A stretch of DNA of 38,224 nucleotides from Dactylosporangium sp. AC04546 (lineage in GTDB: Bacteria > Actinomycetota > Actinomycetes > Mycobacteriales > Micromonosporaceae), in the NCBI RefSeq assembly GCF_022095675.1, contig NZ_JAHYSG010000112.1, forward strand, positions 1 through 38,224, in the 5' to 3' direction. The translations under genes and the position numbers were made by a program. The notes beneath the pieces were generated by a model. It made no database searches. It saw nothing but the letters and a program-made list of their open reading frames with translations, and had not been told where the DNA came from. Positions 12,398 through 21,033 of this stretch are shown here, piece by piece (position 1 is the first letter of the stretch; each line of letters begins with the position of its first letter).

Positions 12398-12418
12398 TCC
12401 TATTTATCCGATAGGAAT
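12398..12418 (+). promoter_or_regulatory. Regulon motif site A (21-bp dyad) before LLM-1
   Basis: TCCTAT (12398-12403) and ATAGGA (12411-12416) form a perfect inverted repeat with a 7-bp centre, continuing to T at 12418. The site ends where the candidate -10 TATGGT (12418-12423) begins, seven bases before ATG 12431, so it covers about -33 to -13. Sites B (14801) and C (17449) align with it base for base in both half-sites. The position suggests repression. Confidence 0.7.
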
Positions 12419-12430
12419 ATGGTGAAGGGC

Positions 12431-13723
12431 ATGACCGCGCGACCGCCACGCACGCTCGGGATCGTCACCGGGGCCGGTGGGCATCCCGGGCCGTACGAGC
12501 TGGCCATCGACCCTCACCGTTCCACCGTCGACACCGCGGTCACCGTGGCGAAGAAGGCCGAAGCGGCGCGGATCGACGCGCTGTTCGTGCCCGACCTGCT
12601 GACCTTCGGGGCGCAGGGGACGATCGGGGCGCAGGAGCCGATCGTGTACGTCGCCGCGCTCAGCCAGGTCACCACCCGCGTCGGGCTCATCGCCAGCGTC
12701 TCCACCACCTTCCACCACCCGTACAACCTGGCCCGGCTGTTCGGCACCCTCGACCACGTCAGCAACGGGCGCGCCGCCTGGAACCTGGTCACCTCCTCCA
12801 TCGGCGAAGAGCACTTCGGGCCCGGCGGGCTGCCCGGGCCGGAGGAGCGCTACGCGCGCGCGGCGGAGACGCTCGATGTCGTCAACGCCCTGTGGGGCAG
12901 CTGGAAGCCCGGCGCGCTCAGGCTCGGGCCCGACGGCCGGGCCGTCCTCGACCCGTCCAGGGTCCGGCCGATCGACCACCGCGGGCGGTACTTCAGCGTC
13001 GAAGGCCCCCTGAACATCCCGCCCCTGCCGCAGGGCCGGCCGGTCCTCATCCAGGCGGGACAGTCCGGGGCCGGCATCGAGCTCGGTGCCCGCTACGCCG
13101 AGGTCGTCTTCACCGCGCTGCCGACGCTCGACGCCGCCCGCGAGTTCACCACCCGCATCCGCACCCGGGCCGCCGAACATGGCCGGCCGGAAGGGCTGCC
13201 GTTCATCTTCAGCTCCTTCCACGCCACGTTCGGCGCGACCGAGGAGGAGGCGCGCAGGAGGGTCGAGGAGCGGCACGAGGCGATCGACTTCGAGGCCGGC
13301 CGTGCGCTCGTCGCCGACATGCTCGGCGGCGGCGTCGACCTGAGCGAGGCCAAGCTCGACGAGCCGCTGCCCGAGTCCCTGCTGCCCGAGGTCGGCGCGG
13401 TGCAGCGGCGCAGGGGGAGGGTGGAGATCTTCAGCCGGTACGTCCGCGAAGGCCTCACCCTGCGCGAGATCATCGTCAAGGCGCAGGACACCGGGCACTG
13501 GAGCGTCGCCGGCACGCCCGAGCAGCTCGCCGACGCGGTCGAGGAGCGGTTCCGGGCCGGGGTGCTCGACGTGCTGTCGGTCGGCGGACTGCACGACCCG
13601 CGCGAGCACGAGTTCGTCGTCGACGGGCTGCTGCACGAGCTGCGCCGCCGCGGCATCGTCAAGCCCGACTACCTCGGCCCGACCCTGCGCGAGAACCTCG
13701 GGTTGCCTACGCTCGGAGCGTGA
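12431..13723 (+). CDS. LLM-class flavin-dependent monooxygenase (NtaA/SnaA/DszA family), LLM-1
   Basis: This 430-residue TIM-barrel flavoenzyme would use reduced FMN and oxygen. It shows the family signatures: DALFVPDLLTFGAQG, VGLIASVSTTFHHPYNLARLFGTLDHVSNGRAAWNLVTS, the RYARAAETLDVVNALWGSW helix, the insertion HRGRYFSVEGPLNIPPLPQGRPVLIQAGQS, and the terminal GPTLRENLGLPTL. Family members act on nitrilotriacetate, sulfones, pristinamycin IIB and other small organics. The reduced flavin must come from a partner reductase, and one is encoded at 15000. The frame is open from 12380, with possible starts at ATG 12419 and GTG 12422. I favour ATG 12431 from the -10 hexamer TATGGT seven bases upstream. 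The stop overlaps the glycosylase start (GTGA), so the two are coupled. Confidence 0.88.
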   Translation: MTARPPRTLGIVTGAGGHPGPYELAIDPHRSTVDTAVTVAKKAEAARIDALFVPDLLTFGAQGTIGAQEPIVYVAALSQVTTRVGLIASVSTTFHHPYNLARLFGTLDHVSNGRAAWNLVTSSIGEEHFGPGGLPGPEERYARAAETLDVVNALWGSWKPGALRLGPDGRAVLDPSRVRPIDHRGRYFSVEGPLNIPPLPQGRPVLIQAGQSGAGIELGARYAEVVFTALPTLDAAREFTTRIRTRAAEHGRPEGLPFIFSSFHATFGATEEEARRRVEERHEAIDFEAGRALVADMLGGGVDLSEAKLDEPLPESLLPEVGAVQRRRGRVEIFSRYVREGLTLREIIVKAQDTGHWSVAGTPEQLADAVEERFRAGVLDVLSVGGLHDPREHEFVVDGLLHELRRRGIVKPDYLGPTLRENLGLPTLGA

Positions 13724-14817
13724 CGCACCACCTGACCAAGGACGAGGCACGGCAGATCGCCGTGCGCGCCCAGCTGCTCGACGCGAACCGGCCGAAGCAC
13801 CTGCTCGACCTTGTGCGCGGCCTGACCCTCCTGCAGCTCGACCCGACCTCGGCCGTCGCGCCCAGCGCCCACCTGGTCGCGTGGAGCCGGCTCGGATCCG
13901 GCTACTCGCCGGCCGACCTCGAGGAGGCCGTCGACCAGCGCTCGCTCATCGAGCTGCGCGGGATGGTGCGACCGGCCGAGGACATCCCGCTGTACCGCGC
14001 CGAGATGGCCGACTGGCCCGGCCCGCCCGGCGGCTGGCGGCACCACCGCGCCGCGTGGGTCCAGGCCAACGACGAGTGCCGCCGCGACATCCTGGCCCGC
14101 CTCGACGCCGACGGCCCGCTGCTGTCGCGGGACCTCCCCGACACGTGCACCGTGCCGTGGAAGTCCAGCGGCTGGACCAACAACCGCAACGTCACCCAGA
14201 TGCTGGAGATCATGCTCCAGGCCGGCGAGATCGCGGTCGCCGGCCGCCACGGCGGCGAGCGGTTGTGGGACCTCGCCGAGCGGGTGTACCCCGACACGCC
14301 GATCCCGGACGCGAACGAGGCGAAGCGACAGCGCGACGAGCGGCGGCTCGCCTCGCTCGGCATCGCCCGCGGCCGCGCCGCCGAGTGCCCCGTCGAGCCG
14401 CAGGACGTCGGCGAGGCCGGCGAGCCGGCCGTCATCGAGGGCGTCAAGGGCGTCTGGCGCGTCGACCCGGCGCAACTGGGACGGCCGTTCGAGGGCCGCG
14501 TCGCGCTGCTGTCACCGTTCGACCGCCTCATCTACGACCGCAAGCGCATGGTCGAGCTGTTCGGCTTCGACTACCAGCTGGAGATGTACAAGCCGGTCGC
14601 CAAACGCCGCTGGGGCTACTACGCGCTGCCGATCCTGGCGGGCGACCGCCTCGTCGGGAAGGTGGACGCGGTCGCCGATCGGCGTTCAGGTGTACTGCGG
14701 GTGCATGCGGTACACGAGGACACGGCACACGACCACGAAGCGGTCCTGCGGGAGCTGGTGTCGCTGGCCACCTGGCTGCGGCTGGAGCCGCCGGAAGAAA
14801 TCCTATCGGCGAAGTAG
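13720..14817 (+). CDS. YcaQ/AlkX-type DNA glycosylase (winged-helix HTH_42 family)
   Basis: This 365-residue protein belongs to the winged-helix family that includes E. coli YcaQ and Streptomyces AlkZ. These glycosylases unhook interstrand crosslinks and remove bulky N-alkylated bases. The catalytic signature is LLQLDPTSAV. The Q39-x-D41 pair matches the QxD motif of the YcaQ/AlkX branch rather than the QxQ of AlkZ self-resistance enzymes. Downstream landmarks are APSAHLVAWSRLG, ELRGMVRPAEDIPLYR, the winged segment with VPWKSSGWTNNRNVTQMLEIML, and the family block FEGRVALLSPFDRLIYDRKR. The start GTG 13720 overlaps the LLM-1 stop by four bases, so its expression is tied to a flavin monooxygenase. 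It may repair damage from a reactive product or simply ride along; the coupling is the observation. Confidence 0.85.
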   Translation: MTHHLTKDEARQIAVRAQLLDANRPKHLLDLVRGLTLLQLDPTSAVAPSAHLVAWSRLGSGYSPADLEEAVDQRSLIELRGMVRPAEDIPLYRAEMADWPGPPGGWRHHRAAWVQANDECRRDILARLDADGPLLSRDLPDTCTVPWKSSGWTNNRNVTQMLEIMLQAGEIAVAGRHGGERLWDLAERVYPDTPIPDANEAKRQRDERRLASLGIARGRAAECPVEPQDVGEAGEPAVIEGVKGVWRVDPAQLGRPFEGRVALLSPFDRLIYDRKRMVELFGFDYQLEMYKPVAKRRWGYYALPILAGDRLVGKVDAVADRRSGVLRVHAVHEDTAHDHEAVLRELVSLATWLRLEPPEEILSAK

Positions 14818-14821
14818 GGTT
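14801..14821 (+). promoter_or_regulatory. Regulon motif site B (21-bp dyad) before the small ORF / flavin reductase
   Basis: TCCTAT (14801-14806) and TAGGGTT (14815-14821) align exactly with sites A and C; CCTA and TAGG are separated by nine bases, as in site A. The site lies inside the last codons and stop of the glycosylase gene. It sits about -38 to -18 from a leaderless start at 14839, over the -35 region. Confidence 0.6.
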
Positions 14822-14826
14822 ACTGA

Positions 14827-14832
14827 TAGACT
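14827..14832 (+). promoter_or_regulatory. Candidate -10 of leaderless small ORF
   Basis: TAGACT ends six bases before GTG 14839, with no Shine-Dalgarno sequence. Motif site B lies immediately upstream. Confidence 0.5.
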
Positions 14833-14838
14833 CGGCTC

Positions 14839-15003
14839 GTGTACGTGAGACGACTGCTGCAGCGCGCGGCCGCGTTCGCGCACCGGGTCGCCGGCCTCGG
14901 CGCCGGCGTGCCGCCCGAGCCGCAGGTCTGGGCCGAGCTCGCCCCCGAGCTGGCCCTGCGCCGGATCTCCACCACCGCGACGGAAGGCAGGTTCGCGCGA
15001 TGA
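14839..15003 (+). CDS. 54-residue protein translationally coupled to the flavin reductase
   Basis: This small reading frame begins at GTG 14839 (another in-frame GTG is at 14845). It encodes a basic amphipathic N-terminus (YVRRLLQRAAAFAHRVAG), a proline patch (GVPPEPQVW), a helix rich in Glu, Leu and Ala (AELAPELALRRI) and the tail STTATEGRFAR. It has no cysteine run that would make it a cysteine-sensing leader. The stop TGA overlaps the reductase ATG (ATGA), so it may serve as a coupling leader. It could also be a small partner protein of the flavin system. Support comes from the promoter geometry, the regulon site upstream and the exact overlap. I know of no described family for it. Confidence 0.55.
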   Translation: MYVRRLLQRAAAFAHRVAGLGAGVPPEPQVWAELAPELALRRISTTATEGRFAR

Positions 15004-15494
15004 CCATGCGCGCCGTGCTGCACCCCACCGAGCTGCGCCGCGTCTTCGGCGCCTTCCCGACCGGCGTGACGGCCATCGCCGCGCTCGTCGACGGGGCACC
15101 CGTGGGCCTGGCCGCCAGCTCGTTCACGTCGGTCTCGCTCGACCCGCCCCTGGTCTCGGTCTGCATCGCCCACACGTCGACGACATGGCCCGTGCTGCGC
15201 CGGGCCGACCGCCTGGGCGTCAGCGTCCTGGGCGCCCACCAGGAGCACCTGGGCCGGCAGCTGAGCTCCCGATCGGGCGACCGCTTCGCGGGCGCGACCT
15301 GGCGGGCCAGCCGGGGCGGCGAGATCGTCCTGGACGGCGCCTCCGCCTGGCTGGACTGCACGATCGAGCACGAGATCCCGGCGGGCGACCACGACATCGT
15401 CCTGCTCCGGGTGCACGACCTCGACGCCGACCGCACGGTCTCCCCGCTGGTCTTCCACCAGAGCACCTTCGGCCGCCTGCAGCGCGCCGCCTGA
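15000..15494 (+). CDS. Flavin reductase (NtaB/DIM6/HpaC-like domain)
   Basis: This 164-residue split-barrel flavoprotein supplies reduced FMN or FAD to two-component monooxygenases. Family marks are LRRVFGAFPTGVTAIAAL, then PVGLAASSFTSVSLDPPLVSVCIA, which lines the flavin pocket. SRSGDRFAG and WLDCTIEHEIPAGDHDIVLLRVHDL follow, the latter with the conserved GDH near the flavin ring. The usual length is 160-190, so it is full length. With two NtaA-type and one short LLM in the cluster, it is the likely shared reductase. The start is ATG 15000 (ATGA overlap with the small ORF); ATG 15006 is also possible. Regulation would come through motif site B upstream. Confidence 0.9.
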   Translation: MTMRAVLHPTELRRVFGAFPTGVTAIAALVDGAPVGLAASSFTSVSLDPPLVSVCIAHTSTTWPVLRRADRLGVSVLGAHQEHLGRQLSSRSGDRFAGATWRASRGGEIVLDGASAWLDCTIEHEIPAGDHDIVLLRVHDLDADRTVSPLVFHQSTFGRLQRAA

Positions 15495-15510
15495 GCGCAC
15501 CCACCGCCGG

Positions 15511-15516
15511 TAGGCT
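15511..15516 (+). promoter_or_regulatory. Candidate -10 of leaderless GNAT gene
   Basis: TAGGCT ends six bases before GTG 15523, and no ribosome-binding site is seen. The gap to the reductase stop is 28 bp. Confidence 0.45.
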
Positions 15517-15522
15517 CGGCAC

Positions 15523-16041
15523 GTGGTGGACTGGGTGCGCCTCCGGCTGGACGTCGACGCCTTCGACGAGCGGGAGTTCGAGCCCTGCGCGGACCAGGCG
15601 CGCGAGTCCGGCGTCCGGTTCGCCAGCCTCGCCGAGCTGGGCGACACCGAGGCGCACCGGCGCGCGCTGTACGAACTCAACAAGGAGTGCTCGGCCGACA
15701 TCCCCGAGCGGGGCGAGTTCCACACGTACGACGAGTACGTCGCCCGGCGTCTCGACGTGCCCACCTTCGACCCGGCCGGCGTGATCCTCGCGCTGCGTGA
15801 CGGCGAGTGGATCGGCATGTCCGCCACGTCGCTGCACCCCGCCGACGGTTCCGCGTTCAGCGAGATGACCGGCGTCCGTGCACCCTACCGCGGCCGGCGC
15901 CTCTCCCTGGCCCTGAAGCTCCACGCCATCCGCTTCGTCCGGGCGGCCGGCCACCGCTGGCTGGTCGCGTACCACCACCCGCGCAACGCCGCGGCGATCG
16001 CGATGAACCGCCGCCTCGGCTTCGCCGACTTCGAGCCTTGA
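15523..16041 (+). CDS. GNAT-family N-acetyltransferase
   Basis: This 172-residue acyltransferase has the acetyl-CoA pyrophosphate loop in VRAPYRGRRLSLALKLHAIRFV (R/Q-x-x-G-x-G/A type, here RGRRLS). The preceding strand is DGSAFSEMTGV. The C-terminal end is NAAAIAMNRRLGFADFEP, the usual GNAT motif B finish. The first 75 residues (FASLAELGDTEAHRRALYELNKECSADIPERGEF) resemble GNATs that act on small amines or antibiotics. The substrate is unknown. GTG 15523 fits a leaderless promoter. The stop codon lies within the -35 of the MerR-type promoter of the next operon. It does not carry the 21-bp regulon motif, so it may not be part of that regulon. Confidence 0.85.
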   Translation: MVDWVRLRLDVDAFDEREFEPCADQARESGVRFASLAELGDTEAHRRALYELNKECSADIPERGEFHTYDEYVARRLDVPTFDPAGVILALRDGEWIGMSATSLHPADGSAFSEMTGVRAPYRGRRLSLALKLHAIRFVRAAGHRWLVAYHHPRNAAAIAMNRRLGFADFEP

Positions 16042-16069
16042 CCTTGCCCCCCGCGGCAGGGTTTAGCGT
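16038..16069 (+). promoter_or_regulatory. MerR-type promoter/operator of the MDR-MerR operon, leaderless
   Basis: TTGACC (16038-16043), a 20-bp spacer, then TAGCGT (16064-16069), six bases before GTG 16076. The spacer contains the dyad ACCTTGCC / GGCAGGGT (16041-16048 and 16055-16062; one mismatch). The MerR gene at 16980 in the same operon is the expected activator. The outer half-sites match those of the promoter at 8874-8904, suggesting related recognition helices. Confidence 0.75.
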
Positions 16070-16075
16070 CCGGGC

Positions 16076-16975
16076 GTGACGAACATCGACGTCCGGCTCG
16101 CCGCGCCCGTCGCGGGGCCGCCCACCCTCACCGACCTCCTCGTGCACACCTCCGGCGTGCCGGAGCCCGGGCCCGGTCAGGTCCTGGTCCGTAACCGCTG
16201 GATCGCGCTCGGCGCCGTCCAGCGCACCCTCATGGCCCGCGGCGTCCTCGTCGCGAAGTGCCTCGGCGAGGTCGCCGGCTCCGGGGACCTCGTGACACAC
16301 ACCGGGGCGTGGAGCACTCACGTCGTCGCCGACCCGGCCATGCTCCGGCCGGTACAGGGTGCCGCGGGGGCGCCGGACGCACCGGACGCGGCCAGCGCCG
16401 CGCGGCTGATCGGGAGCGCCCCCGTCGCGCTCGCGGCGTTGCGGGCCGCCGGGCTGCGGGCCGGAGAATCCGTGCTCGTCACCGGGGCCGCCGGTGGGCT
16501 GGGCAGCGCCGCCGGAGCTGTCGCGCGCAGCCTTGGGGCCGGGCGCGTCGCCGGGACGACCGGGTCGGCGTGGAAGGTGCCGCTGCTCACCGGCGAGCTC
16601 GGGTTCGACGCCGCCGCCGGGCACGCGTCGCTCGCCGAGGCGGTCGACGCGCTCGGGCCGCTCGACGTGGTCGTCGACACGCTCGGCAGGGTCGAGGAGC
16701 TCGTCGCCGCCGTGGCGGCGGGGACCCGCATCGCGCTGTGCGGGGCGCTCAGCCAGCAGCTCGGCGGGGCGGCCGACCCGCGGCTCGACCTCACCGCCGT
16801 CATCCTCAAGCGGCTCACCCTGGTCGGCGCCACGGCCGGCGCCGACCAGGGCGGGGAACTGCCCGCCGGCCTTTCCCTGCCGTACACCGTGATCGAGGGT
16901 CTGAGCGCGGCGCCGCAGGCGCTGCTCGACCTCTTCGCCGGCAGGCACACGGGCACCGTTCTCGTCCGCGTGTGA
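16076..16975 (+). CDS. MDR-superfamily NADPH-dependent (quinone-type) oxidoreductase
   Basis: This 299-residue medium-chain reductase lacks zinc ligands. The N-terminal GroES-like part contains PEPGPGQVLVRNRWIALG. The cofactor Rossmann motif is VLVTGAAGGLGSAAGAVARSLGA (about residues 134-156), and a late RLTLVGATAG segment follows. Members reduce activated double bonds or quinones, often in detoxification. It is about 30 residues shorter than most quinone reductases; the catalytic-domain loop after residue 50 looks compressed. It is the first gene of a two-gene unit with a MerR regulator, led by a MerR-type leaderless promoter. That arrangement suggests induction by an electrophile or quinone; the inducer is inferred only. 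Confidence 0.82.
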   Translation: MTNIDVRLAAPVAGPPTLTDLLVHTSGVPEPGPGQVLVRNRWIALGAVQRTLMARGVLVAKCLGEVAGSGDLVTHTGAWSTHVVADPAMLRPVQGAAGAPDAPDAASAARLIGSAPVALAALRAAGLRAGESVLVTGAAGGLGSAAGAVARSLGAGRVAGTTGSAWKVPLLTGELGFDAAAGHASLAEAVDALGPLDVVVDTLGRVEELVAAVAAGTRIALCGALSQQLGGAADPRLDLTAVILKRLTLVGATAGADQGGELPAGLSLPYTVIEGLSAAPQALLDLFAGRHTGTVLVRV

Positions 16976-16979
16976 CACC

Positions 16980-17339
16980 GTGGACCGCATGCGGATCGGC
17001 GAACTCGCGGCGGAGACCGGCACCACCACCCGCGCGCTGCGCCTGTACGAGGCGGAGGGCCTGCTCGCCAGCGACCGCGGCCCGAACGGCTACCGCGACT
17101 ACCCGGCGGGCGCCGCGCTGCGGGTGCGCAACATCCGTGAGCTGCTGAGCCTCGGGTTCACCATCGCGGACGTGCGGTGGTTCACCCGGTACCTCGACCA
17201 GGAGCTGCCGCCGGCGTTCGCCGACGGCGGCTCCTGCGCCACCGCCATGCGGGTCGCCGGCGAGCGCCTCGCCGACCTCCGTGCCAGGATCGACGCGCTG
17301 ACCCGCCTGCACGACGTCCTCGCCGCCCGGATGGGCTGA
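16980..17339 (+). CDS. MerR-family transcriptional regulator (small)
   Basis: This 119-residue regulator has the MerR winged helix MRIGELAAETGTTTRALRLYEAEGLL, then NGYRDYPAGAALRVRNIRELLSLGFTIADVRWF, followed by a dimerisation helix. A single cysteine (GGSCATAM, about residue 83) near the start of the long helix could sense thiol stress, as in some small MerR proteins. The start GTG 16980 comes 4 bp after the MDR gene's stop; ATG 16989 is an alternative. Its target is very probably the promoter at 16038, because that site has the long-spacer dyad and this is the only regulator in the operon. Confidence 0.88.
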   Translation: MDRMRIGELAAETGTTTRALRLYEAEGLLASDRGPNGYRDYPAGAALRVRNIRELLSLGFTIADVRWFTRYLDQELPPAFADGGSCATAMRVAGERLADLRARIDALTRLHDVLAARMG

Positions 17340-17387
17340 GGCACCCGCGAAGCCAGCGGAATGGCCGGCCGGTCTCTATGAATGAGA

Positions 17388-17422
17388 TGGGAAATACATG
17401 ATTTCCCACCCGTGAGGGGTGG
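17388..17422 (+). terminator. Two overlapping inverted repeats after the MerR gene (terminator or regulatory RNA candidate)
   Basis: TGGGAAAT, five bases, ATTTCCCA (17388-17408) is a perfect 8-bp stem. CCACCC, five bases, GGGTGG (17406-17422) is a perfect 6-bp stem. They share bases 17406-17408, so both cannot form fully at once. No U-tract follows. The rest of the 17340-17478 gap carries motif site C and the MFS promoter. Confidence 0.4.
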
Positions 17423-17448
17423 CCCGGGCGGGCGCGCGGAGGGCAAAC

Positions 17449-17469
17449 TCCTATCGTGCACATCGGAAT
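17449..17469 (+). promoter_or_regulatory. Regulon motif site C (21-bp dyad) before the MFS-LLM operon
   Basis: TCCTAT (17449-17454) and TCGGAAT (17463-17469) align with sites A and B at the same spacing. AATAGT (17467-17472), six bases before GTG 17479, is the candidate -10, so the site covers about -30 to -10. Confidence 0.65.
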
Positions 17470-17478
17470 AGTTCCGCA

Positions 17479-18906
17479 GTGACGGCGCACCGGCTGATCG
17501 TGGGGGCCTGCCTGGCCGCCGGCTTCACCACCCTGCTCGACCAGTCCGTGCTCAACGTCGCCATGCCCGCGCTGCGCGGCTCCCTGCACGCCGGTGACGC
17601 GGCCCTGCAATGGATCATGGCCGGGTACTCGCTCACCTTCGGCCTCGCGCTCGTCCCGGCCGGGCGGCTCGGCGACATGTACGGCCGCCGCGCGCTGTTC
17701 GCCGGCGGGCTCACCGTCTTCGCCGTCTGCGGGATCGTCGCCGCCCTCGCGTCCGACGCCTGGGCCGTCGCCGCGGCCCGGCTCGTCCAGGGCGCCGGGG
17801 CCGGCGTCGTCAACCCGCAGATCATCGGGCTGTTCCAGGACCTGTTCACCGGCACCGGGCGGGCCCGGGCCCTCGGCGCCTACGCGGTCGTCGGCGGGGT
17901 CGCCGCCTCCGTCGGGCCGCCCGTCGGCGGGGTCATCCTCCACCTCGCCGGCGACGACCCGGGCTGGCGGCTGGTCCTGCTGCTCAACCTGCCGTTCGCG
18001 ATCGCCACGGTACCGCTGGCGCTGAAACTCCTGCCGAAGGACGTGCCCGACCGGCGCCGCACCCAGCTCGACCTGCCCGGGCTGCTGCTGCTCGCCGCCG
18101 CCACACTCGCCGTGCTGCTGCCCCTCGTCGGCGTCTCCGGCGGCTGGTGGTGGGCGGCCGCCGCCGCGGCCGGCGTCGCGGCGCTCGTCGCCTGGGAGCG
18201 CCGCTACACCGCCCGCGGGCGGACCGCGCTGCTGCTGCCGGCGCTCACCCGCAGCCGCGGCTTCGTGCTCGGCACGCTCGTCGCGATGTGCTACTTCGGC
18301 GCCGCCCTCGCCCTCAACCTGGTCATCGCGCTGTTCCTGCAGGACGGGCTCGGGCTGTCCCCGCTCGCCGCGGCGGCGCTGTCGCTGCCCGGCGCGGTCG
18401 GGTTCGCCGCGTCGTCGACGGCCAGCCACCGCCTCGTCAGCCGGTACGGGCGGCACGGCGTCTCGGCCGCCCTCGCCGTCGCCGCCGTCAGCGTCGCCGC
18501 CGCGGCCGCCGCCACCATGCTGCTGCCGGTCGGCGGGGTCGTCGTCGCGCTCGGGGTCAGCCAGCTCGTCACCGGCGCGGCCGGCGGCCTGATCAACGCG
18601 CCCAACCAGGCCCTCACGCTGACCCACGCGCCGCCCGGGGCGGGCGGGCTCAGCGCCGCGATGCTGCAGCTTTCCCAGCGCCTGGCGGCCAGCGTGAGCA
18701 TCGCCGCGGTCACCGGGATCTTCCTGCACACCGCGCAGGCCGGGCTCCTGCAGTCGTACCGCGCGGCGCTGACCCACGGCACCCTGCTGTGCCTGGCCCT
18801 GGTGCTGCTGTCGCTGCTGTTCGCCGTCGCCGACGGCGTCGCCGTGCGAGCCGTTTCCGTGCAAGCCGTCGCCGACGGCCCGACCATCCGGAGGTCCACC
18901 GTATGA
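17479..18906 (+). CDS. MFS transporter, DHA2 (EmrB/QacA-like) 14-TM family
   Basis: This 475-residue polytopic membrane protein opens with DQSVLNVAMPALRGSLHAGDAALQWIMAGYSLTFGLALVPAGRLGDMYGRR. That contains the MFS loop 2-3 motif (GRLGDMYGRR) and the DHA2-type QWIM segment. Motif C-like sequence appears in VQGAGAGVVNPQIIGLFQDLF and VASVGPPVGGVI. About 14 hydrophobic segments follow. These proteins usually export drugs or metabolites with proton antiport. In this operon it could remove a toxic product or move the substrate. I start it at GTG 17479, from the alignment of site C with the -10 element; GTG 17419 would only add a basic, non-membrane leader. Its stop overlaps the next ATG (ATGA). Confidence 0.85.
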   Translation: MTAHRLIVGACLAAGFTTLLDQSVLNVAMPALRGSLHAGDAALQWIMAGYSLTFGLALVPAGRLGDMYGRRALFAGGLTVFAVCGIVAALASDAWAVAAARLVQGAGAGVVNPQIIGLFQDLFTGTGRARALGAYAVVGGVAASVGPPVGGVILHLAGDDPGWRLVLLLNLPFAIATVPLALKLLPKDVPDRRRTQLDLPGLLLLAAATLAVLLPLVGVSGGWWWAAAAAAGVAALVAWERRYTARGRTALLLPALTRSRGFVLGTLVAMCYFGAALALNLVIALFLQDGLGLSPLAAAALSLPGAVGFAASSTASHRLVSRYGRHGVSAALAVAAVSVAAAAAATMLLPVGGVVVALGVSQLVTGAAGGLINAPNQALTLTHAPPGAGGLSAAMLQLSQRLAASVSIAAVTGIFLHTAQAGLLQSYRAALTHGTLLCLALVLLSLLFAVADGVAVRAVSVQAVADGPTIRRSTV

Positions 18907-19760
18907 GCGCACCACCGCTGCACCTGGCCGTCGAGCTCGACGGCGTCCCGTTCGCGGACCTGCCCGCGGCCGTCGCCGCCGCCGAGGCCACCGGCTTCGC
19001 CCTCGTCACCCTCGCCGACTCGCCGCTCCCGCCGGCCTCGGGGGAGCGGATCGAGGCCGGGGTGCTGGCCGCGTACCTTGCCCGGCGCACCAGCCGCATC
19101 GGGCTCGCCCCGGCCCTGCCGGTCACCATCACCGAACCGTTCCACCTGGCCACCCAGCTGGCCAGCCTCGACCACGCCTCCGCCGGCCGGGCCGCCTGGG
19201 TCGTCGCCGCCCCCAACGGCGCCGACGAGCTCGCCACCGTCGGGCGGGCGCCGCTCGACGCGGCCGGGCTGCGCCGCGAGGCCGAGGACGTCATCCGGGT
19301 CGCCCGGCTGCTGTGGGACTCGTGGGAGGACGACGCGATCATCCGCGACGTCGCCAGCGGCCGGTTCCTCGACGCCGACCGGGTCCACCACGTCAACTTC
19401 GAGGGCGCCACGTTCTCGGTCGCCGGGCCGCTCATCACGACCCGCCCGCCGCAGGGCCAGGTCGTCGTCATCGTCCCGCACGCGCTCGGCCTCGACGCGT
19501 TCGCCGACGTCGTGCTGGTCGAGGACCCGTCGGACGTGGTCGAGGCGGGCCCGCTGGTCTTCGCCGAGGTCCGTTCGTACCCGGCCAGGCTCGACGACCT
19601 GGCCGGAGCGGTGCACGGGATACGGCTGCATCCGCAGTCACTCGAGGAGCTCACCGCGGTCATCACCCAGGCCCCGGGCCGGCCCGTCGCCGGTCCGACG
19701 CTGCGCGACACCCTCGGCCTGCGCCGTCCCGTCAACACGTTCGCACTCCAGGAGGCCTGA
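18903..19760 (+). CDS. Short LLM-class oxidoreductase, internally compressed
   Basis: This 285-residue luciferase-like protein keeps the N-terminal barrel strands (LHLAVELDGVPFADL, TSRIGLAPALPVTITEPFHLATQLASLDHASAGRAAWVV). It also has the family's mid-helix and insertion (ILRV-like DVIRVARLLWDSWEDDAI, NFEGATFSVAGPL) and the ending GPTLRDTLGLRRP. That tail is almost the same as LLM-1's. NtaA-type enzymes are about 430 residues, so roughly 140 residues between the insertion and the C-terminus are missing. It may therefore be a non-catalytic partner, like the beta subunit of luciferase, or a reduced enzyme. The frame is intact with normal codon use, so it is not obvious decay. It is coupled to the MFS gene, and one base separates it from LLM-2. 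Confidence 0.75.
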   Translation: MSAPPLHLAVELDGVPFADLPAAVAAAEATGFALVTLADSPLPPASGERIEAGVLAAYLARRTSRIGLAPALPVTITEPFHLATQLASLDHASAGRAAWVVAAPNGADELATVGRAPLDAAGLRREAEDVIRVARLLWDSWEDDAIIRDVASGRFLDADRVHHVNFEGATFSVAGPLITTRPPQGQVVVIVPHALGLDAFADVVLVEDPSDVVEAGPLVFAEVRSYPARLDDLAGAVHGIRLHPQSLEELTAVITQAPGRPVAGPTLRDTLGLRRPVNTFALQEA

Positions 19761-19761
19761 C

Positions 19762-21033
19762 ATGAGTGTTGGTCGAAGCCCGCGACTGCACCTCGGCGTC
19801 TTCTTCACCGGCGTCGGGCCGAACCTGCTGTGGACCGAGCCCGGCGCCGCCGACCACACCCACATCGACACGTTCGTCGCCGTCGCCAGAACCCTCGAAC
19901 GCGGCCTGTTCGACGCGTTCTTCCTCGGTGAGGGCCTGCGCGTGCGGGAGAACCGCGGCCGGGTCCACGACCTCGACGTCGCCGGCCGGCCCGACGCCAT
20001 CACCCAGCTCGCCGCCCTCGCGGCGGAGACGACGCACATCGGGCTCGTCGCGACGCAGAACACGACGTACAACTTCCCGGCCGACCTCGCCCGCCGCCTC
20101 GCCTCCCTCGACCGCATCAGCAAGGGCCGGGCCGGCTGGAACGTGGTCACGACGGACAACGCTTGGACGGGCGAGAACTTCCGCCACGGCGGCTGGCTGC
20201 CGCACGAGCGCCGCTACGAGCGCGCGGCCGCGTTCGTGGCCGCGGCGAAGGCGCTGTGGGCCGGTTCGCCGGTGGACGAGCACTCCGACGTGATCTCCCT
20301 GCGGGCCCGCGGCACGGTGCCGGGCACCCGGCCGGTCATCTTCCAGGCGGGCGACTCGCCCGGCGGTCGCGACCTGGCGGCGCGGCACGCGGACGTGGTG
20401 TTCTCGGCCAACACCGACTACGACAAGGCCGTCGAGTACGCCGCCGACCTGCGCCGCCGCCTGGCCTCGTACGGGCGGCCGCCGGACGCGGTTCGCATCC
20501 TGCCGGGCGCGTCGGTGGTGCTCGGCGACACGCCCGCCGAGGCGTCGGAGAAGGCGCGGTGGATCCGCCGCGAACAGACCACGGGCCCCCGCGCGATCGC
20601 GTTCCTGGAGCAGTACTGGGGCAAGGACCTCGCAGGCTACGACCCCGACGGCCCGCTGCCCGACGTCGAACCGGCCGAGGGCGAGCTCGACCCGTCCCGC
20701 GGCACGATCCCGATCGAGCTGCGCACCGGCAAGCTGGAGCGGGTCCGCCAGTGGCGCGAGCAGGCGGCGGCGAACGGCTGGTCGATCCGCGACCTGGTGA
20801 TCGAGGTGACGCCGAACCACACCGCGTTCGTCGGCACCCCCGGCCAGATCGCCGACGAGTGGGCCCGCTACGTGCGCGACCGCGCCGTGGACGGCTTCAA
20901 CCTCCTGCCCCAGCAGCTGCCCGGCACCGCCGAGGACGTGGTCGACCGCCTGGTCCCGGAGCTGCAGTCCCGCGGCGTGTACCGCACCGAGTACGAGGGC
21001 ACCACCCTGCGCGAACACCTCGACCTGGTCTGA
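19762..21033 (+). CDS. LLM-class flavin-dependent monooxygenase (NtaA/SnaA/DszA family), LLM-2
   Basis: This full-length 423-residue barrel enzyme shows LHLGVFFTGVGPNLLWTEPGA at the N-terminus, FDAFFLGEGLRV, THIGLVATQNTTYNFPADLARRLASLDRISKGRAGWNVVTTDN, the GRDLAARHADVVFSANTDYDKAVEYAADL block and the C-terminal VFVGTPGQIADEWARYV-like stretch. The W-N-V-V-T core is the FMN-phosphate region of this family. Reduced flavin would come from the reductase at 15000. Close families act on sulfones, nitrilotriacetate and other xenobiotics. Start ATG 19762 has AGGAGG six bases upstream, the only strong ribosome site in this operon, perhaps to raise LLM-2 yield. It follows the short LLM by one base. LLM-1 and LLM-2 are clearly diverged. 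Confidence 0.88.
   Translation: MSVGRSPRLHLGVFFTGVGPNLLWTEPGAADHTHIDTFVAVARTLERGLFDAFFLGEGLRVRENRGRVHDLDVAGRPDAITQLAALAAETTHIGLVATQNTTYNFPADLARRLASLDRISKGRAGWNVVTTDNAWTGENFRHGGWLPHERRYERAAAFVAAAKALWAGSPVDEHSDVISLRARGTVPGTRPVIFQAGDSPGGRDLAARHADVVFSANTDYDKAVEYAADLRRRLASYGRPPDAVRILPGASVVLGDTPAEASEKARWIRREQTTGPRAIAFLEQYWGKDLAGYDPDGPLPDVEPAEGELDPSRGTIPIELRTGKLERVRQWREQAAANGWSIRDLVIEVTPNHTAFVGTPGQIADEWARYVRDRAVDGFNLLPQQLPGTAEDVVDRLVPELQSRGVYRTEYEGTTLREHLDLV

Follow-up and report, generated by a model that had tools for sequence, protein, structure and literature searches.

Three copies of a two-fold symmetric dyad mark the promoters of three gene units in a 38,224-nucleotide stretch of Dactylosporangium sp. 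AC04546 (contig NZ_JAHYSG010000112.1; positions 1–38224 of contig C112 in the source genome, G000), which is referred to as a whole as the window. The units encode luciferase-like monooxygenases (LLM), a flavin reductase, and a transporter. The dyads are probably the operators of one sulfur-responsive regulon, which would be governed by a CymR-like repressor of alternative-sulfur genes from the Rrf2 family. The regulon took in further sulfur genes, both elsewhere in the genome and across the family Micromonosporaceae, and Rrf2 genes adjoined the operator. The sites, their conservation, and their proximity to sulfur and Rrf2 genes were computed from the sequences.

The TCCTAT-N7-RTMGGR dyads started at 12398, 14801, and 17449 in a pattern search of the window with 0 mismatches, and a search allowing two mismatches returned in addition only the same three dyads on the other strand. 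The symmetric core was TCCTAT-N7-(A/G)T(A/C)GG(A/G), which differed from the perfect dyad TCCTAT-N7-ATAGGA by 0, 2, and 1 mismatches at sites 1, 2, and 3, respectively. Dyad 1 (12398..12416, TCCTATTTATCCGATAGGA) was located upstream of the monooxygenase gene LLM1, dyad 2 (14801..14819, TCCTATCGGCGAAGTAGGG) overlapped the stop codon of an AlkZ-like gene (TAG, 14815–14817), and dyad 3 (17449..17467, TCCTATCGTGCACATCGGA) was located upstream of an MFS-LLM-LLM unit; all three were found by both pattern and weight matrix and were assigned to neither strand. The initial annotation had reported three copies at these positions and no others in the window, which was confirmed with 0 mismatches. Its half-sites and positions stood, and its unit of 21 bp was corrected to a symmetric unit of 19 bp.

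The weight matrix, built from 31 exact sites that all lay outside the genus, ranked the three dyads first to third in the window with 37.1, 25.7, and 22.8 bits, respectively, and the fourth match scored 8.4 bits. In 300 windows simulated with a first-order Markov model, the best single score was 13.8 bits, and 0 of 300 reached even the third score of 22.8 bits. The exact pattern of the initial annotation occurred three times in the whole genome (13,024,294 bases; 13.0 Mb in 348 contigs), each time in the window, and its control, read backwards, 0 times. The looser dyad behaved differently: at two or fewer mismatches, the genome contained 19 sites and the backwards control gave 24, which places single copies at this level of mismatch at chance, and loose matches elsewhere in the genome were mostly chance. 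This last comparison, and the position of the sites at promoters that are AT-rich within a window of 73.6% GC, would be expected if the three sequences were only common promoter or AT-rich core elements with an accidental resemblance. Chance similarity was nevertheless rejected as highly improbable on the genome count of the exact pattern and the simulated windows, and the dyad was kept while its distance to the start codon varied (33, 38, and 30 bp).

The sites were also kept at the orthologous promoters of congeners. The LLM1 orthologues of G001, G002, G003, and G005 were 82–93% identical, and the LLM1 promoter site was strong in G002 and G003 (37.1 and 26.3 bits) and degenerate in its left half in G005 and G001 (21.7 and 16.8 bits). 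G001 had another copy 197 bp before the start (23.8 bits). The site before a small open reading frame (ORF) and the flavin reductase gene was found in four of four species, including G002, G003, and G005 (25.7–32.4 bits), and was followed by GATAGACT in all four. In G003, this site was kept with no AlkZ-like match alongside, so constraint on a coding sequence does not account for the conservation of site 2. The site of the MFS unit scored 27.9 bits in G002 and a weak 13.2 bits in G003; G002 kept all three sites (37.1, 28.3, and 27.9 bits). Furthermore, 0.8 Mb separated LLM1 (4.33 Mb) from the other two units (5.15 Mb) in G003, and each had a site, which indicates that the sites follow the genes. 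One regulator for the three units, as the initial annotation proposed, was thus well supported by the persistence of the sites at the corresponding promoters of congeners, including the one in which the units are dispersed, and by the ties of the motif to sulfur and flavin genes elsewhere.

These ties were examined with the pattern TCCTAY-N7-RTAGGA in 61 genomes, 37 of which are Micromonosporaceae. Exact sites were only slightly commoner than the backwards control in Micromonosporaceae (41 vs 32) and rarer than the control in other families (5 vs 15). The number of sites is weak by itself, and their position is informative. Leaving aside the loci studied earlier, 37 family sites (6 in congeners) were examined by Pfam search on the gene or a BLAST-cluster representative; of these, 19 flanked a sulfur- or flavin-linked gene, a raw count without a background rate. 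These genes encoded an SsuA-like NMT1 solute-binding protein in five cases, as a rule with the ATPase and permease of an ATP-binding cassette (ABC) transporter, a PF13454 protein in five cases, one of them also beside cysteine dioxygenase, and a flavin reductase in three cases; LLM, cysteine dioxygenase, TauE, GCS2, sulfite-oxidase-type, and sulfotransferase genes accounted for one each. Three of the 37 sites were at SBP_bac_5 or peptidase genes. At the examined loci, the site lay directly upstream of five of seven SsuA-like genes. The expectation that the motif precedes sulfur, LLM, and ABC-transporter genes was borne out in relatives by SsuA-type ABC operons, flavin reductases, LLM genes, and cysteine dioxygenase. 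As a separate observation, the operator also marked a GCS2 gene (glutamate-cysteine-ligase family), or a Trans_reg_C gene adjoining one, in three genomes (L119, L128, and L133).

In the own genome, site C37:93741 preceded the gene of a PF13454 flavoprotein, an FAD-NAD(P)-binding protein. A site of more than 15 bits was found within 215 bp upstream at 13 of 14 loci with relatives of this gene (L260–L273; 12 of 13 genomes), three of the 13 sites having been in the training set of the matrix. The sole miss, G040, was also without an Rrf2 match at 1e-15.

Further matches in the own genome were used only with AT flanks or conservation (at three mismatches, 48 places vs 23 for the control). Fourteen of the 16 two-mismatch sites outside the window were inspected; from the 48 three-mismatch places, the window sites, the loci studied earlier, and 10 further regions, picked by visual inspection of the matching bases, were covered. 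Site C31:87925 was located 14 bp before the ATG of a flavin mononucleotide (FMN) reductase gene (PF03358), between the Rrf2 genes A and B, and was kept in G001, G003, and G006. One of two sites on C44 lay between an LLM–glutathione-transferase-like pair and an SBP_bac_5 transporter gene, the C183 site preceded a flavin adenine dinucleotide (FAD) oxidase gene and an LLM gene, and the C199 site preceded a thioredoxin-like gene. Operator-like sites were also found in the start regions of two FR47-type acetyltransferase genes, on C44 (L223:9767) and C33 (L225:4046), which are paralogues on different contigs; both sites were inside the longest reading frame. The C150 site was located 305 bp before a gene of the sulfite/nitrite-reductase family. 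Sites of this type were present in the own genome and in six of six congeners at −323 to −337 (8.7–25.6 bits), with an invariant left half, TCCTATCG, and a decayed right half. Outside the genus, a comparable site was found at one of the 12 sulfite reductase loci scored (L246, 12.9 bits), the last seven of the 26 loci being outside this count. A weak site of 13.2 bits, identical in G002, was located before the Rrf2-D gene on C67, which is itself followed by a gene for an SBP_bac_11-family solute-binding protein. Another weak site, upstream of metK on C49, fell within the final part of the gene before it. Several matches with two or fewer mismatches were inside predicted genes, and in five of the 10 further regions (C4, C82, C93, C27, and C2) no sulfur gene was recognised by inspection of reading frames, with no Pfam search.

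The genes beside and under the operator point to the Rrf2 family for the regulator. The own genome contained 19 Rrf2 matches (PF02082), nine of which were over the cut-off, and TIGR00738 was over its cut-off for Rrf2-A, Rrf2-B, Rrf2-D, and the L144 protein. The candidate genes A (C31:87172–87633) and B (C31:88735–89178) flanked the FMN reductase gene with its operator, and the related Rrf2-D gene (C67:12814) was a further candidate. Rrf2-A had 84 matches at E values up to 1e-15 in the 37 Micromonosporaceae genomes. Seven of the 41 exact family sites had an Rrf2 gene no more than 5 kb away, compared with 0.125 expected (Poisson P 9e-11); these were counted by eye, two of the seven shared one Rrf2 gene, and the Poisson value assumes independent sites. 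At L122, L140, L144, and L147, the site preceded an SsuA-like gene and an Rrf2 gene followed the ABC permease gene on the same strand, and at the SsuA-like locus L129 (G033) the Rrf2 gene was located 1.2 kb upstream. Among 20 further Rrf2 loci, mostly B-type, two had a site with one or no mismatch, both right at the Rrf2 start. These two cases came from other genera: in G032 the site preceded Rrf2-B by ~62 bp, and in G021 it separated the divergent genes Rrf2-B and Rrf2-C (~128 and 27 bp away, respectively). A weaker form of 16.2 bits was found ~71 bp before Rrf2-B in G028.

A tree of 63 Rrf2 proteins comprised clades A, B, and C, with site-linked members in all three. Clade C (five rows) included the own C67 protein, and its other four members were all site-linked. 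In G001, which has the operator, only A and B were among the Rrf2 matches at 1e-15, and A or B is therefore favoured there. The own Rrf2-A, -B, and -D contained no cysteine in the matched region, as expected of a non-iron–sulfur protein of the CymR type, and a paralogue on C102 contained cysteine. Among specific NCBIfam models, Rrf2-B and Rrf2-D matched CymR best, and the nearest solved structures by sequence included IscR and CymR. Beside an Rrf2-A-type gene in G010 (L176, 1995–2357), four near-identical GCCTAC-N7-GTAGGC-like units were spaced ~104–134 bp apart, and are perhaps a repeat array rather than operators.

Together with the site counts given above, several observations weigh against a regulon of this kind. 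The C31 site had decayed in G002 (15.9 bits), and no site was found at the FMN reductase/Rrf2-A locus in the G004 piece; the G005 FMN reductase piece, which is incomplete, also yielded none. Eighteen of the 37 family sites were without a clear sulfur or flavin gene, 15 of them with none recognised or unannotated. Orthologous promoters, which kept the site in congeners, lacked it beyond the genus: in the best 80 of 88 LLM1 loci, a few of which had a short upstream part, 77 loci outside the genus had no site above 8 bits within 400 bp, including those of Nocardia, Streptomyces, Pseudonocardia, and Rhodococcus, and the three with a site were all Dactylosporangium. In the same 80 loci, 10 matches above 18 bits were obtained with the matrix and 0 with its reversed form. 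The operator is a trait of the sulfur genes of the family, and the membership of LLM1 a trait of the genus rather than a property of the enzyme. For the regulator, no site was found at the own Rrf2-A and Rrf2-B promoters, and the site-linked label, assigned by the analyst, was not significantly clustered on the Rrf2 tree (119 of 500 shuffles were as low). With site-linked members in three clades and no such clustering, the binder was not singled out among the Rrf2 paralogues. Moreover, the CymR equivalog model NF047409 scored 63.2, 87.8, 68.5, and 62.5 bits, far below its cut-off of 195, and Rrf2-A was slightly closer to IscR (65.3) than to CymR (63.2).

CymR of Bacillus and Staphylococcus (PDB codes 2y75 and 3t8r) is an Rrf2-family repressor of cysteine metabolism and has a partnership with CysK. 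The candidates resembled CymR in their family by sequence, in the absence of cysteine from the own A, B, and D proteins, and in sulfur-linked targets that include Ssu-type transport. In contrast to CymR, they scored far below the equivalog cut-off, are actinobacterial, occur as several paralogues, and are associated with targets rich in FMN-dependent monooxygenases. IscR of E. coli (PDB codes 4hf0 and 4hf1), also of the Rrf2 family, has a cysteine-bound iron–sulfur cluster and iron–sulfur genes as targets, and its type-2 sites are two-fold symmetric, with CC and GG 13 bp apart. The dyads shared this symmetry and spacing, and IscR was the best specific NCBIfam model of Rrf2-A by a small margin, whereas the iron–sulfur cysteines were missing from the own A, B, and D and the targets concerned sulfur scavenging instead of iron–sulfur genes. 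SsuR, CysR, and McbR of Corynebacterium are sulfur regulators of the ROK and TetR types; they offer a parallel in the actinobacterial control of sulfonate monooxygenases and flavin reductases, but belong to other protein families. The C31 locus does have a ROK gene in its vicinity, but the neighbour of that gene is sugar-isomerase-like.

A binder from another family, for example of the LysR type, could govern the same sulfur regulon. The sequence CTAT-N7-ATAG fits the T-N11-A form of LysR sites, and the LysR proteins CysB and Cbl control sulfur genes in other bacteria. This alternative is considered unlikely, since Rrf2 genes lie beside and beneath the operator; no systematic search for LysR genes was made.

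The promoter layout of the three units bears on how an Rrf2 repressor might act. Each dyad was followed by a −10-like hexamer and, 6–7 bp further on, by a start codon, as read from the letters of the window. These were TATGGT (12418..12423, + strand; 7 bp before the ATG at 12431) at site 1, TAGACT (14827..14832, + strand; 6 bp before the GTG at 14839) at site 2, and a weaker AATAGT, then GTG at 17479, at site 3. Counted from the first base of the dyad, the start codon was 33 bp away at site 1, 38 bp at site 2, and 30 bp at site 3. This layout suggests leaderless transcripts for the three units, with the dyad over the core promoter. The predicted hexamer of LLM1 was also TATGGT in G002 and was TATCGT in G003.

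All genes of the units were on the + strand. LLM1 (12431..13723) is an FMN-dependent monooxygenase of the NtaA/DmoA family (PF00296; TIGR03860, 350.8 bits, cut-off 279.7), and its end is overlapped by the AlkZ-like gene (13720..14817; PF06224). Site 2 served a flavin-reductase unit, as first annotated, except that the unit opened with an ORF of 54 codons (14839..15003; no Pfam match) that begins at the predicted leaderless codon. This ORF was also located directly before the flavin reductase gene in G002, G003, and G005, with 47–89% identity. The flavin reductase (15000..15494; PF01613) followed. The third unit consisted of the MFS transporter (17479..18906; PF07690), with a GTG start and a probable leaderless transcript, LLM2 (18903..19760), and LLM3 (19762..21033). 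The transporter was nearest to a DHA2/EmrB model, below the cut-off of that model. LLM3 belongs to the NtaA/DmoA family (TIGR03860, 344.8 bits), and LLM2 resembled this family along a portion of the protein only (130.9 bits, under the 279.7 cut-off). Upstream of this unit, a second conserved element (17374–17404, CTCTATGAATGAGATGGGAAATACATGATTT) was near-identical in G002, with partial conservation in G003. As an operator it is weak, at 8.4 bits, and another regulator may bind there.

A MerR-family regulator encoded in the window (16980..17339, + strand; PF13411) could instead bind the dyads and control the three units locally. Its gene is just upstream of site 3, the dyads adjoin the −10 hexamers, and in G003 a MerR relative and an ADH-like gene adjoined a further copy of the operator (L055:2731), which was 0.25 kb away from where the ADH gene starts. 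However, G002 keeps the three sites, and its closest MerR match was only 42% identical; moreover, 44 of the 61 genomes had no match at 1e-15, including the operator-bearing G013, G021, G024, and G032. The MerR protein was thus disfavoured as the binder and is given very little probability, because its cognate gene is not present wherever the sites are kept, G002 having only an ADH remnant. The regulator is thus probably outside the window, as the initial annotation had held unless it was one of the MerR or PadR proteins. Apart from this, the pair of ADH-like and MerR genes adjoined an operator copy at different places in two species (window 16076–17339; L055:1086–2731), with only the ADH remnant in G002 (L052:11399–11627), and may therefore have moved within the regulon.

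Binding by an Rrf2 protein, the paralogue responsible, repression, the sulfur signal, and the substrates are what we infer from these data. When sulfur is plentiful, a CymR-like Rrf2 dimer would sit on TCCTAY-N7-RTAGGA over the core promoter and block RNA polymerase; its candidates are the products of the C31 pair flanking the FMN reductase gene and of the related C67:12814 gene. Repression is suggested by the position of the site over the core promoter, by its palindromy, and by the regulator family, in which CymR is the best-known sulfur member. On sulfur starvation, the dimer would leave the operator, and the three monooxygenases (LLM1, LLM2, LLM3) would be made together with the transporter and with the flavin reductases as their source of FMNH2. 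The FMN-dependent monooxygenases would then release sulfur from organosulfur compounds. The window units combine NtaA/DmoA-family monooxygenases (TIGR03860), a flavin reductase, and a transporter, which is presumably the set needed to cut such compounds.

A wider proposal is advanced more tentatively. One operator code in Micromonosporaceae, read by three paralogous and mostly cysteine-free Rrf2 clades, may run an organosulfur-scavenging regulon across the family, in which the PF13454 flavoprotein, the two FR47-type acetyltransferases, the 54-residue ORF product, and the DHA2-like transporter would be encoded by new sulfur-metabolism genes. To our knowledge, sulfur control in this actinobacterial group has been little studied. 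The three-copy motif thus leads to a sulfur regulon that can be tested across the family and for which candidate regulators are named. With the operator as a guide, sulfur genes whose function is unknown, such as that of the PF13454 flavoprotein, can be sought, and FMN-dependent monooxygenases can be matched with their flavin reductases. For Dactylosporangium itself, the three units of the window probably belong to one sulfur-starvation response.

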